Source: Oscillatoriales cyanobacterium (lineage in GTDB: Bacteria > Cyanobacteriota > Cyanobacteriia > Cyanobacteriales > Microcoleaceae). Taken from it: a stretch of 64,000 bases of DNA. The position numbers were made by a program, and so were the translations under genes. The stretch is taken from assembly GCA_004292955.1 (NCBI GenBank), contig RDXX01000008.1, positions 1-64,000 on the forward strand, given 5' to 3'. The stretch's first letter is position 1, and each line of letters opens with the position of its first letter. This document shows, piece by piece, positions 39,049 through 44,813 of the stretch. Under the pieces are notes generated by a model, which did not search any database, was not told the DNA's origin, and saw only the letters and a program-made list of their open reading frames with translations.

Positions 39049-40251
39049 ATGATAATGTATCAGGCTTACAAGTTCCGACTATATCCGACAGCCGAACAGC
39101 AGCAGTATTTTGCTGGTGCTTTCGGCTGTTCGCGTTGGTTGTGGAATTACAGCCTAAATATGAGTCAGGAAACATACAAGGCTACGGGTAAGGGGCTAAG
39201 TCGAGGTGCGATCCAAGGTTTATTACCTCAGCTAAAAATAGAATATCCTTGGCTGAAGAAAGGGGCTTACTCGCAATCTCTACAGGTTGTTGCGCTAAAT
39301 CTGTCTGTTGCCTACCAAAACTTCTTTGAGAAAAAAGCTGGATTCCCTAGCTTCAAATCAAAGCACGGTCGGCAATCTGTCAGCTATCCTCAGAATGTCA
39401 AGGTTGGCGAAAAGTCGATCAAGCTACCTATCATTGGTGAAGTGAATTGCAAAGTTCATCGCACTTTTGATGGCACAGTTAAGACTGTTACCGTATCTAA
39501 AAACCCAGATGGAAAGTATTTTGCTTCTATCTTGGTTGATGATGGCATCAAGAGCGTAGAAACTACTGCGAAAGGCAAGGCAATTGGTTTAGATGTAGGC
39601 TTGATTGACTTCTGTGTAACTAGCGATGGCAGTAAGTATAAAAACCCTCGTCACCTCAAGAAACATAGCAAAAACCTCAAGCGCAAACAGCAAAAACTCA
39701 GTCGTAAACAGAAAGGAAGTAGCACTAGAAACAAAGCTAGAAGATTAGTGGCTAAAGTCCACTCTAAAATCAAACGTGTTCGCGAGGATTTTCTGCACAA
39801 ACTGTCCCGCAAGATAGTAGACGAAAACCAAGTCATTGCAGTAGAAGATCTAAATGTCAAAGGCATGGTACGCAACCACTGTCTAGCCAAAGCAATTAGC
39901 GATGCTGGCTGGGGGATGTTCGGAACAATGCTCAAGTACAAAGCTGAGAAAGATGGGAAAACCTATATTGAGGTTGAGCGATTTTTCCCTAGCTCCAAAA
40001 CTTGCAATAATTGTCTGCACAAAGTATCCGAGATGCCTTTGGATGTTCGTCATTGGGATTGTCCTAAATGTAAATCTCGAAACGATCGCGACGTGAATGC
40101 GGCAAAAAATATCAGAGATGAAGCCTTGCGGTTTTTGGCATTAGGAACGAGTGCTGCTGCCAGTGGAGGGAATGTAAGTCGTGGTGGCAAGATTTCGGTC
40201 TTGTCGAACGCGGTTCCCCTTGAAGCTGGAAGCCCGCTCTCTACCCGATAG
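39049..40251 (+). CDS. tnpB: TnpB-type RNA-guided nuclease of an IS200/IS605-family element
   Basis: The 400-residue protein has the RuvC-like triad (GLDVGLIDF, VEDLNVKGM, DRDVNAAKN) and a zinc finger with CNNC and CPKC. All acidic residues are present, so it may be active. No TnpA transposase is nearby, as in IS1341-type elements that move in trans. The C-terminal 20 residues (EAGSPLSTR end) overlap the predicted omega-RNA/right-end hairpin, a normal arrangement. Confidence 0.92.
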   Translation: MIMYQAYKFRLYPTAEQQQYFAGAFGCSRWLWNYSLNMSQETYKATGKGLSRGAIQGLLPQLKIEYPWLKKGAYSQSLQVVALNLSVAYQNFFEKKAGFPSFKSKHGRQSVSYPQNVKVGEKSIKLPIIGEVNCKVHRTFDGTVKTVTVSKNPDGKYFASILVDDGIKSVETTAKGKAIGLDVGLIDFCVTSDGSKYKNPRHLKKHSKNLKRKQQKLSRKQKGSSTRNKARRLVAKVHSKIKRVREDFLHKLSRKIVDENQVIAVEDLNVKGMVRNHCLAKAISDAGWGMFGTMLKYKAEKDGKTYIEVERFFPSSKTCNNCLHKVSEMPLDVRHWDCPKCKSRNDRDVNAAKNIRDEALRFLALGTSAAASGGNVSRGGKISVLSNAVPLEAGSPLSTR

Positions 40252-41292: not shown

Positions 41293-42021
41293 GTGAGTAA
41301 CACCAGCAACTTCCGCGAAGCCGTGCGCGAGGCCAAAAACCACGCGCTGGTTGGCCCCAACGTCATCGCTAACGCTCTCCCCTTCGTGGGCGGCGGACTT
41401 GTCTTAACTGCTGTCGGCACCTACGGCGGCCTCGGAGTCATCCGCAACTATCCCGGTATCTTCTTTCCCACGTTTATTGCTGCGATCGTCCTAGAATTAA
41501 TTCTGTTCTTCGTCGCCAGCGCCGCCGCCGAACAAAACAACAAAAACACCGCCTTGCCCCTGCTGGCTACCTACAGCCTGCTTTCCGGCTACACCCTCAG
41601 CGGATTGGTATTTACAGCCCTCAGAACCCAAGGCGTCGGCATCGGCGGCATCGGTTTTGCAGCCCTCGGCTGCGGCATTACTTTCATCGCCGCCCGCCAA
41701 ATAGGCTCCAACTTGTCGGAAGCAGACGGCATGGCCCTCACCAAGACTATCAGTTTAGGTGTCATTGCTTTGTTAGTAGTCGTTGGCGGTCAATTTCTGC
41801 TGTCGCTGTTTGGCGTTTACACCCCAACTTGGTTGGAAATTGGCATTTCTGGCATCGGCGTGTTTATATTTGCTGGTGCTGCGATCGTCGATTTTTACAT
41901 CTTACCCCGCACCTACCACGACGACCAGTATTTGCCCGCCGCCCTGTCGATGTACTTGACTTACATCAACTTGTTCATCTTCATTCTGCGCCTGATGATT
42001 GCTCTCAACGGTCGCGATTAA
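41293..42021 (+). CDS. Bax inhibitor-1/YccA family membrane protein
   Basis: The 242-residue protein has seven hydrophobic segments with conserved YSLLSGYTLSGL, GCGITFIAARQIG and MYLTYINLFIFILRL blocks. The Bax inhibitor-1 (UPF0005) family includes bacterial calcium-leak and stress-related membrane proteins. GTG 41293 is the start. A rho-independent terminator lies 24 bp after the stop. Confidence 0.85.
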   Translation: MSNTSNFREAVREAKNHALVGPNVIANALPFVGGGLVLTAVGTYGGLGVIRNYPGIFFPTFIAAIVLELILFFVASAAAEQNNKNTALPLLATYSLLSGYTLSGLVFTALRTQGVGIGGIGFAALGCGITFIAARQIGSNLSEADGMALTKTISLGVIALLVVVGGQFLLSLFGVYTPTWLEIGISGIGVFIFAGAAIVDFYILPRTYHDDQYLPAALSMYLTYINLFIFILRLMIALNGRD

Positions 42022-42084: not shown

Positions 42085-42221
42085 ACCTTGACAATTCCCG
42101 CTTGCATCCGCGTTCATCCGCGTTCATCCGCGGTCAAAAAATATTTTTTAGTATTTGTGGCACAACAAGTGAGCCACAAGCTAAGATTAATATAATCACC
42201 CACAACGCTGGAGAAATCACA

Positions 42222-43308
42222 GTGGAAATTCTAGAGACCAAACACAATATCGAAATTTTGTGCGATCGACTAACCAACCTACAAGACTGTCTTTGACTCA
42301 GCCTTAACCGCCGAAAGCCAAAAGTTACAACAGCTAGCAGCACAGCCGGAATCTGGCAAAAGCATCAAGACAGTTGAACGACCACTCCAAGAACTAGACG
42401 CACTCCAATCCTATCAGGCAAAACTCAACCAGTGCCAAACAATTTTGGCAGATGCTACAGCAGCACTGGAGTTACTCGAATTTCAAGCAGACGACGAACT
42501 AGAGCAAGAACTTCAAACTAATTTAGCTCAACTAAACCACTCTCTCCAAGAGTATGAAATAGAGCAATCCTTGAGCGGGCCTTGCGACAAAAATGGAGCC
42601 TACCTCATAATTAAGGCCGGAACAAACGGTATCGATGCTCAATACTGGGCAGAAATGTTGCTCAGAATGTATATTATGTGGGGACTAAGCCGAGGCTACC
42701 AAGTTGCGGACGTTGAATCTTCCCCAGCGCCTGAAATAGGAATTATTTCTACAACCTTGGAAATAGACGGACGTTACGCTTGCGGCTATCTCAAGTCAGA
42801 AACCGGAATACACCGACTTAAACGGAAATCGCCTTTTAATATTACCATAATGCGACTCTCTTCTACAGCGACGGTGGAAATTTTGCCAATGTACGTGCAA
42901 TTGGAGATTGCACAGCAGGATTTAAGAGCCATATTACCCAATCTCAATCAGAATACTAACGGAACCAAAGCATGGGTGAAAATTGTGCATATTCCTACTG
43001 GTATTTCTGCCATTTGTGACGGATGTCGCACTCAAATGCAAAATAAAGACAAGGCTTTGGCGGTTCTCAAGAGCAAACTGTTTGCTATTATGCAAAGGCA
43101 AGGAGTTCAGCAGCTTGCAGACATTCAGTGCGATCGGCTAAAAACATTCCTCAACCAACCAATTCGAGAATATCAATTTGCCAGCGACAGCGCAAACCAG
43201 GACAAAGTTCTGGATTTCCGTACAGGAATCGAAACAACAGCCGTCGCCGAGGTACTCGACGGCAAGATTGACCCATTCATCAAAGCTGGTCTGCTGCTGA
43301 AAAATTGA
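42222..43308 (+). CDS. GGQ-less RF2 (PrfB) paralogue with conserved programmed frameshift site
   Basis: The gene begins at GTG 42222 after GGAGAAATCACA. It reads 24 codons to TGT-CTT-TGA-C (42288-42297), as in prfB. A +1 shift joins an uninterrupted frame of 337 codons (DSALTAESQ...), predicting about 361 aa colinear with the next gene. Conserved are LSGPCDKNGAYLIIKAG, the SPF tripeptide (RKSPFNITIM), KIVHIPTGI and DFRTGIETTAV. The catalytic GGQ loop is missing: DLRAILPNLNQNTNGTKAWVKIVH replaces [14 protein letters not shown]. It therefore should not hydrolyse peptidyl-tRNA. Its long open frame and kept shift site argue against simple decay; pseudogene remains the alternative. Confidence 0.85.
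42288..42297 (+). other. Programmed +1 frameshift site of the RF2 paralogue
   Basis: TGT-CTT-TGA-C, with the first 24 codons ending at CTT and the next codon in the +1 frame GAC. It matches the RF2 site (CTT TGA C) and precedes an open frame without stops. Confidence 0.85.
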
Positions 43309-43374: not shown

Positions 43375-44485
43375 GTGGAAGTTCTAGACATCAAACACGA
43401 TATTGAAACATTGTCCGATCGACTGGGTACCACCCAGGACTATCTTTGACATCCCCGCACTCACAGCCAAAATCCAAGATTTAGAGCAAATCTGCGCCCA
43501 ACCGGCATTCTGGGACGACCAAGAACAAGCTCAAGGAACCCTCCAAGAACTGAATGACTTCAAATCTCATTTAGACCAATACCACGGCTGGCAGACTAGC
43601 CTAGAAGACGCTAGAGCTATTTTAGAACTGCTGGAGTTAGACGCAGACGAGTCCCTGTTCCAAGAAGCCTCATCGAGTCTTTCCCAATTAACCCGCGAAC
43701 TTGACCAGTGGGAACTGCAACAATTACTGTCGGGGCCCTACGACGAAGGCGGCGCCGTTTTGACAATTAACGCCGGGGCCGGCGGTACAGATGCTCAAGA
43801 TTGGGCCGAAATGCTGCTGCGGATGTACACCCGCTGGGGTGAAAGTCAGGGTTACAAGGTACATTTAACCGAGATTTCTGAGGGAGAGGAAGCAGGTGTT
43901 AAATCTGCCTCTTTGGAAATTGTCGGCCGCTACGCTTACGGCTACATGAGGTCGGAAAAAGGTACTCACCGTTTGGTGAGAATTTCGCCGTTTAACGCTA
44001 ATGACAAGCGTCAAACAAGTTTTGCGGGCGTTGAAGTGATGCCGGTGCTCGATCGATCCGTTAAACTGGATATTCCAGAAAAAGATTTGGAAGTCACGAC
44101 TTCTCGCGCAGGCGGCAAGGGCGGACAAAATGTTAACAAGGTAGAAACGGCTGTCCGCATCGTTCACCTTCCGACTGGTTTAGCCGTCCGCTGTACCGAA
44201 GAACGCAGTCAGTTGCAAAATAAAGAAAAAGCTCTCGCCTTACTCAAAGCTAGGCTGTTGGTGGTTGCTAGGGAACAGCGCGCCGCCGAAATTGCCGAGA
44301 TTCGCGGCGATATGGTAGAGGCGGCTTGGGGCAACCAAATTCGCAACTACGTGTTTCACCCCTATCAAATGGTCAAGGATTTGCGGACTGGAGTGGAAAC
44401 AACTGCCGTCTTAGATGTGATGAACGGCGAATTAGAGCCGTTTATTCAAGCTTACCTGCGCCAGGAAAATCAGTTGGTCAGTTGA
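43375..44485 (+). CDS. prfB: Peptide chain release factor 2 with programmed +1 frameshift
   Basis: RF2 reads UAA and UGA. The gene starts at GTG 43375 after TAGGAGAAC. Its first frame ends at UGA 43447-43449 within TAT-CTT-TGA-C, and a +1 shift gives the main frame ([10 protein letters not shown]...), total about 369 aa. The SPF anticodon-like motif ([12 protein letters not shown]) and the catalytic GGQ (44120-44128, in [14 protein letters not shown]) are both present. A purine AGGA at 43436 lies just upstream of the shift site, as in the E. coli stimulator. Autoregulation by UGA reading is known for this gene family. The paralogue upstream ends 66 bp before this start. Confidence 0.93.
43436..43450 (+). 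other. RF2 programmed frameshift site
   Basis: AGGACTATCTTTGAC contains the slippery CTT, the UGA stop and a following C, with a Shine-Dalgarno-like AGGA just before. Confidence 0.92.
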
Positions 44486-44508
44486 CAGTTGACAGTTGAC
44501 AGTTGACA

Positions 44509-44626
44509 GTTGGTCAGTATCCGCTCAATAGCTCGGGGTAGACTACTGCGTTTGGAACGATTTTGCGATATTTAACGCTCATCATTGAGCGATTTACCCC
44601 GATTTATTGAGCGGATACGTTGGTCA
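44509..44626. mobile_element. MITE with 14-bp inverted ends and 8-bp target duplication
   Basis: The element spans 44517-44618 (102 bp). GTATCCGCTCAATA (44517-44530) and TATTGAGCGGATAC (44605-44618) are perfect inverted ends. GTTGGTCA flanks both sides (44509-44516 and 44619-44626). It sits in a TTGACAG heptamer array, so part of the flank match may reflect the array. Confidence 0.8.
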
Positions 44627-44695
44627 GTTGGTCAGTAGTCAACTGTCAACTGTCAATTAACTGTCAACTGTCAATTGTCAACTATCAACTGAATG
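44627..44695. repeat. TTGACAG/CAACTGT heptamer array before rpsU
   Basis: Repeated CAACTGT units and GTTGGTC units fill the space between the MITE and the rpsU upstream region. A similar array precedes the MITE at 44476-44508. The whole 328-bp gap between prfB and rpsU contains no other gene. Confidence 0.75.
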
Positions 44696-44813
44696 AAGAA
44701 CCTATTTTCTGGTATAATTTTGGGGTTTTGGTCGATCGCCCGACATCCAACAGGTCGCGCCGCCAGAAATCTTGATATGATAAAACTTGATCTAACGAAC
44801 CAAAGGAGAAAGA

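Follow-up and report, generated by a model that had tools for sequence, protein, structure and literature searches.

A GGQ-less RF2 paralogue with its own +1 shift cassette directly upstream of prfB in a Microcoleus-like cyanobacterium

The paralogue and prfB in the window

The stretch of 64,000 nucleotides analysed here (the window; contig RDXX01000008.1 of assembly GCA_004292955.1, an Oscillatoriales cyanobacterium) stems from a Microcoleus-like genome of 7.29 Mb, designated G000, and carries a second RF2-like gene at positions 42222–43308 of the forward strand, directly 5' of prfB. The paralogue begins with a GTG at 42222 that is preceded by GGAGAAATCACA, with a Shine-Dalgarno (SD)-like GGAG at 42210–42213 (+). 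According to the sequence and the comparison across the genus, a leader of 24 codons runs in frame 0 from this GTG to CTT and is followed by TGA (42222–42296, +). It contains CAAGAC (42282–42287, +), which from its sequence and pairing energy is a degenerate SD-like stimulator (CAGGAC in prfB), and ends in the shift site CTTTGAC (42291–42297, +), beyond which a stop-free +1 frame of 337 codons extends from 42295 to 43308. The prfB gene encoding RF2 (43375–44485, +) repeats this layout 1153 nt downstream, with a GTG at 43375, its own CTTTGAC at 43444–43450 and a +1 frame of 345 aa (43448–44485) that includes the GGQ codons at 44120–44128. Such a layout is beyond chance, as seven more copies from the same genus and 13 others have the same arrangement. 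The genome also has a third, prfA-like match away from the pair (C112).

The upstream neighbour of the paralogue is a gene for a Bax1-I family membrane protein (41293–42021, +; Pfam PF01027), which served as a locus marker and, in the majority of the relatives inspected, was present on the contig piece that carries prfB. A TnpB-like gene with OrfB_IS605 and Cas12f1-like TNB domains (39049–40251) is located approximately 2 kb upstream of the pair, and a cluster of short repeats resembling TTGACAGTTGACAG / GTTGGTCAGT was noticed by eye just after prfB (44479–44700). Promoter and terminator scans yielded nothing useful at the start of the paralogue or of prfB; a small hairpin listed by the terminator scan, CTGGGTACCACCCAG, is situated at 43423–43437, just before the SD-like element and the shift site of prfB.

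The protein predicted from the +1 frame is 46% identical to the prfB product over residues 3–334 of its 337, and Pfam profiles recognise a PCRF domain (127 bits) and an RF-1 domain (45 bits, cut-off 35), while the scores on the RF2 model TIGR00020 (250.4 bits, cut-off 370) and on the PrfH model TIGR03072 (29.4 bits, cut-off 166.65) stay below the respective thresholds. Alignment with the other members of the family, 21 paralogues in total, located the SPF codons of the window copy at 42829–42837 (+); the motif is intact in 14 of the 21 and altered in seven, and the KRQTSF segment that follows it is altered in all of them. GGQ is missing from 20 of the 21 paralogues, including the window copy, in which the loop is replaced by the segment LRAILPNLNQNTNGTKAWV (42922–42978, +), four residues shorter than that of prfB. 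GQ is retained in G059 and G331, and the paralogue of G349 (L132:2589–3680) is the sole one to keep GGQ. Where the switch loop of prfB has WGNQ, the window copy has LNQP (43150–43161, +). The Trp of this loop links the reading of the codon with the catalytic arm, and it is present in 30 of 30 prfB sequences and in none of the 21 paralogues. A conserved motif specific to the paralogues is IREY, which replaces IRNY in 19 of 21.

An AlphaFold model of the window paralogue, built with 16 family members, reached a mean pLDDT of 78.8 with a low-confidence stretch at the place of GGQ. The structure closest to this model is free E. coli RF2 (1gqe, TM 0.79), and the 50 structural matches listed are of the RF2 and RF1 types, the aeRF1-type fold not being among them. 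A sequence-only reading of the locus had described a colinear, GGQ-less RF2 paralogue adjoining prfB, with a long stop-free frame, a retained SPF and a replaced GGQ loop, and this description is confirmed for the window copy.

Distribution, descent and selection

In the window's genus, the paralogue was found in 8 of 29 genomes, beside prfB each time. A search of 388 genomes of the order, in which scoring was restricted to the top five candidates of each genome, revealed a second RF2-like match (E 1e-50 or better) in 21 genomes, namely the eight of the genus, G189, G059 and G129, and ten genomes of family f33, which we take to be Nostocaceae. No second match was present under this scoring in the other 367 order genomes, 12 of which gave no match whatever, and the paralogue is therefore dispensable. 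While 18 of the 21 copies lie directly 5' of prfB, the copy of G363 is located about 4.3 kb from prfB on the same contig and that of G377 at a contig edge, as is its prfB contig. The G129 copy sits well inside a contig other than that of prfB, which argues for a function of the paralogue in trans.

A sample of 386 genomes from the phylum, searched with profile A1 for two matches at E 1e-60, contained five known carriers and 26 more genomes with two matches. Eighteen of these 26, eight of them from other orders, were rechecked, and their second match (E 1e-38 to 1e-42) proved to be prfA-like and apart from prfB; the remaining eight belong to the window's order and had one match each in the order-wide search. 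No paralogue was recognised outside the order among the 386 genomes, a search that more diverged or fragmentary copies could escape. A collection of named genomes gave Microcoleus FACHB-DQ6 and FACHB-61 together with a distant Sulfurospirillum match, and, with regard to a phage origin, 68 records of a phage collection matched, all with less than 60% identity and the best 10 of the 68 with 30–37%. Across the 29 genus genomes, RF3 exceeded the cut-off in 27 and ArfB in 20 (5 of the 8 genomes with the paralogue, 15 of the 21 lacking it). A role of the paralogue as substitute for a missing termination or rescue factor was dismissed, given that no link with RF3 or ArfB was evident in these genomes.

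In a tree of the 21 paralogues and 30 prfB sequences, the two sets formed the two sides of one branch with a support of 100/100, with the caveat that long branches may draw paralogues together. Forcing the genus paralogues onto the genus prfB costs 70 log units (p-AU 0.0003), and a recent duplication within the genus only is ruled out by the tree and the AU test. The IREY motif shared by 19 of 21 paralogues agrees with the tree on a common origin. Since the 21 paralogues are one clade apart from all 30 prfB, the duplication is judged to be old, and on this phylogenetic evidence the family is the product of a single ancient prfB duplication with later losses. Because the G349 paralogue still has GGQ, the motif probably disappeared on more than one occasion since the duplication.

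In G001 (L064), whose prfB protein matches the window's in every residue, other sequence occupies the paralogue's place upstream of prfB, and only the last bases of the paralogue and the spacer remain; G014 resembles this remnant pattern by eye. G001 and, by eye, probably also G014 look like secondary losses. For the others among the 21 genus genomes without the paralogue, loss and original absence are indistinguishable. The prfB of G003 (L040; G003:C239, about 1732–2737) is matched in two pieces separated by a gap, which is either an assembly fault or a broken gene. The dS of the paralogue is below that of prfB in many pairs (0.43 vs 0.92 for G000–G007), and recombination between species is a possible cause.

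The dN/dS ratio of the paralogue was 0.727 in the genus (n = 8; 2 delta lnL 11.4, p 7e-4; 0.706 without G016) and 0.346 in f33 (n = 10; 2 delta lnL 251, p 2e-56), in comparison to 0.081 and 0.063 for the respective prfB genes, and is thus about five- to ninefold higher; these p-values are approximate, as the fits with omega = 1 were made on a kappa grid, and recombination could bias dN/dS. By region, the genus values are 0.54 for domain 1, 1.05 for the middle, 0.79 from SPF to GGQ, 1.34 for the GGQ segment (17 codons) and 0.56 for the rest, the middle and the GGQ segment being close to or above neutrality, and the GGQ segment of f33 reaches 0.40 (20 codons). Codon positions 1–3 of the genus copies are almost equally diverged (0.17, 0.14 and 0.18). 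Neutral simulations, run on the fitted trees and starting from observed sequences, produced a mean of 41–60 stops in seven genus leaves (minimum 11) vs one observed, with no more than one stop in 0 of 2000 runs for each of three roots, and 110 stops in nine f33 leaves (minimum 53) vs four observed. Internal stops occur in five of the 21 copies, a TAA each in G016 and G363 and one common TGA in G260, G191 and G377, and length differences among the copies amount to whole codons that leave the frame open. To judge from these substitution patterns, purifying selection holds the paralogue frame, loosely in the genus, and the individual copies of G016 and G363 may well be dying. The common TGA is codon 166 of the paralogue in G260 (L129), G191 (L130) and G377 (L134) and is followed by C. 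In these three f33 species, dN/dS is 0.57 before the TGA (p 0.025) and 0.41 beyond it (p 0.003). This suggests that the region downstream of the stop remains in use, three related genomes being thin evidence, and the TGA-C may possibly be a readthrough gate.

According to the sequence-only reading, a tandem pair in related genomes with a dN/dS well below 1 would speak for function, whereas stops in relatives or a dN/dS near 1 would speak against it. The paralogue does recur (8 of 29 genomes in the genus, 21 of 388 in the order), with a dN/dS below 1 in f33 and in the genus. The genus value of 0.73 and the internal TAA of G016 partly match the unfavourable signs but are countered by the neutral simulations and by f33. 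With a dN/dS below 1, the 337 codons open in +1 represent a real coding gene, and by these comparisons the paralogue is more than a local, decaying copy.

The shift cassette and the leader

All 21 paralogues have a leader, CTTT, a stop and C, with the main frame in +1, and the prfB genes of the 21 carrier genomes have CTTTGAC without exception. The stop in the paralogue's shift site is TGA in 12 copies, TAA in three (G016, G059 and G129) and TAG in six, all of the latter in the window's genus. Of the eight genus copies, one has CTTTGAC (the window's own), six have CTTTAGC and one has CTTTAAC. The paralogue's own CTT-TGA-C site emphasised by the sequence-only reading is therefore conserved as a cassette throughout the family, but as CTTTGAC proper in only one of the eight genus copies. 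RF2 can read the stop in the window and in 15 of the 21 copies in all, while UAG in the other six is read by RF1 only. The spacing from GTG to CTT is 69 nt in 8 of 8 genus copies. In neutral simulations on the tree of 21 copies, the cassette was kept in all leaves in 0 of 2000 runs, the best run preserving it in 11 of 20. With the tree of the genus by itself, the shift site remained intact in all leaves in 29 of 2000 runs by chance, so that the evidence for conservation of the cassette comes from the family as a whole.

In 17 of the 21 copies, the pairing of the SD-like element is weaker than in prfB, and there is hardly any in seven of the eight genus copies, including the window's (-0.5 kcal/mol for the paralogue vs -4.0 kcal/mol for prfB). 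Given this weak stimulator, frameshifting at the paralogue site may be inefficient. The first 50 codons past the shift site are constrained in both clades (dN/dS 0.51 and 0.60, p 0.006 each), and the window copy has no in-frame start ahead of codon 51 (TTG, 42445). The constraint on a stretch without an in-frame start points to translation entering the +1 frame from the leader. An alternative start inside the +1 frame was rejected, since none precedes codon 51 in the window copy and yet that stretch is constrained, and readthrough of the frame-0 stop cannot reach the ORF, which is in +1. The first 48 nt of the genus paralogue leaders are 86% like those of their own prfB vs 57% like the f33 paralogue leaders, and the last 21 nt are only 53% like prfB. 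The leader (42222–42272 and its homologues) thus looks as if it had been homogenised with, or converted by, prfB, with the cassette left distinct.

The cassette shares CTTT, the in-frame stop, the following C and the short leader with the prfB frameshift motif as far as it is described in the available text of a survey published in mBio in 2025 (PMC12421855), and differs from it by the RF1-only UAG in 6 of 21 copies and by the SD-like element that is weaker in 17 of 21. That text reports TGA in 98.6%, TAA in 1.4% and TAG in none of 8,164 prfB motifs, and its authors suggest from the lack of UAG that RF2 autoregulation is the universal purpose of the motif (PMC12421855). UAG is mechanistically workable at a CUU-U site because, according to the accessible part of a review from 2016, UAG was the codon that followed in the widest CUU substitution test (32 variants), in which CUU-U far surpassed all others in efficiency (PMC5009743). 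An early in-frame stop combined with same-frame readthrough is described in that part of the review as unknown for RF2 (UGA) and RF1 (UAG) (PMC5009743). A stop that changes in identity but is never missing from any of the 21 copies is the pattern expected for a gene that depends on the shift yet no longer has to sense RF2.

Possible roles of a release factor relative without GGQ

The paralogue resembles RF2 (prfB, TIGR00020) in descent, domain order, predicted fold, +1 shift cassette and its place beside prfB, and it differs by lacking GGQ (20 of 21) and the switch-loop Trp (21 of 21), by the altered SPF in 7 of 21 and by a TIGR00020 score below the cut-off. With PrfH it has the RF-1 domain in common. 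PrfH keeps GGQ, and the paralogue scores only 29 against the cut-off of 167 on TIGR03072. Balon has an aeRF1-type fold unrelated to RF2, in contrast to the RF2-matching model of the paralogue. Nevertheless, Balon is likewise a release factor relative without GGQ and binds the ribosomal A site in hibernation according to the text available, which illustrates that such a protein can serve as a hibernation factor (PMC10901736). Chloroplast PrfB3 of plants, as presented in the accessible text, is an RF2 relative whose gene was kept after loss of the release motifs; it differs in being a land-plant gene that has also lost SPF and binds the petB 3' UTR, with no frameshift cassette described there, and is an example of an RF2 relative turned RNA protector (PMC5897788). 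The window paralogue keeps SPF, unlike a PrfB3-type protein that has lost both motifs, and we file the family in neither the Balon nor the PrfB3 family. Our literature search, which ran outside supplements, most subscription journals and NCBI protein records, retrieved no publication about an RF2 paralogue without GGQ in cyanobacteria.

A dead prfB duplicate in slow decay, the alternative given by the sequence-only reading, would fit the missing GGQ, the genus dN/dS of 0.73 with its evenly diverged codon positions, the internal stops in five of 21 copies and the patchy occurrence (8 of 29), together with the secondary losses in G001 and, as judged by eye, probably in G014. However, neutrality predicts approximately 41–60 stops in the genus and 110 in f33, where 1 and 4 are seen, the length differences are of whole codons in an open frame, f33 has a dN/dS of 0.35 (p 2e-56), and motifs found only in the paralogues such as IREY (19 of 21) are conserved. 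As the window copy itself is also open, decay is largely refuted for the family and very unlikely in our view. We consider it highly improbable, too, that the gene is a long cis-acting upstream reading frame whose translation, and not its product, tunes prfB. While 18 copies directly 5' of prfB, a nineteenth in G363 about 4.3 kb off on the same contig, the G377 copy and its prfB contig both ending at a contig edge and a genus frame kept in spite of a loose sequence would suit such a role, the G129 copy well inside a contig without prfB, the 4.3 kb in G363 and the constraint on f33 copies at the amino-acid level speak against it.

The sequence-only reading had further proposed that a protein which recognises UGA without releasing the peptide could compete with RF2, favour frameshifting or readthrough, or act in rescue or regulation, and that the pair could form a feedback loop. 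A competitor that reads UGA through SPF is in line with the SPF of the window copy and of 14 of 21 overall, with the predicted RF2 fold and with UGA in 12 of 21 shift sites, including the window's, but KRQTSF is altered and the switch-loop Trp lost in all 21 copies, and SPF is altered in seven. The loop does not hold as a general rule, because the shift-site stop is the RF1-only UAG in six copies, with UAA in three others; for the copies with UGA, among them that of the window with both UGA and SPF, it may apply. On balance, a competitor of RF2 appears unlikely. An RNA-binding protein acting off the ribosome is likewise improbable: the accessible text on PrfB3, an RF2-related protein that without SPF and GGQ protects petB mRNA, provides a precedent (PMC5897788), and here 20 of 21 copies lack GGQ and seven have an altered SPF, but 14 copies keep SPF, and the genomic context points to no RNA target.

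RF2 descent, a predicted RF2 fold, the disappearance of both GGQ and the switch-loop Trp, purifying selection and a retained cassette are all evident at the level of sequence. The reading that we prefer, with a probability of roughly 45%, is that the paralogue is an ancient prfB duplicate kept by selection, encoding a non-hydrolytic RF2-like protein that would be reached by +1 frameshifting and would probably act on the ribosome. During slow termination at the leader stop, the ribosome would slip by +1 at CUU-U, and this slip would be the sole route to the protein, so that its output would rise when termination capacity falls. The relevant capacity would be that of RF2 where the stop is UGA, of RF1 or RF2 at UAA and of RF1 alone at UAG. 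In the steps of which we are least sure, the protein might dock in the ribosomal A site via its conserved domains without release of the peptide, and might thereby hold or protect slow, terminating or idle ribosomes, much like the GGQ-less Balon with another fold.

A wider interpretation, unlikely as it stands, is that we are dealing with a natural frameshift sensor re-tuned from RF2 to RF1: with CUU-UAG-C in six of the eight genus copies, the protein would appear when termination by RF1 is slow, the second UGA-C in three f33 species may add a readthrough gate, and the product would be a stress factor of RF2 fold, sitting on ribosomes with the chain left unreleased. The textbook autoregulatory switch of RF2 here precedes a protein without the parts to work as RF2, and in six species it carries UAG. 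One system thus poses two questions, whether the cassette senses termination in general and what the role of a release factor that is unable to release might be.
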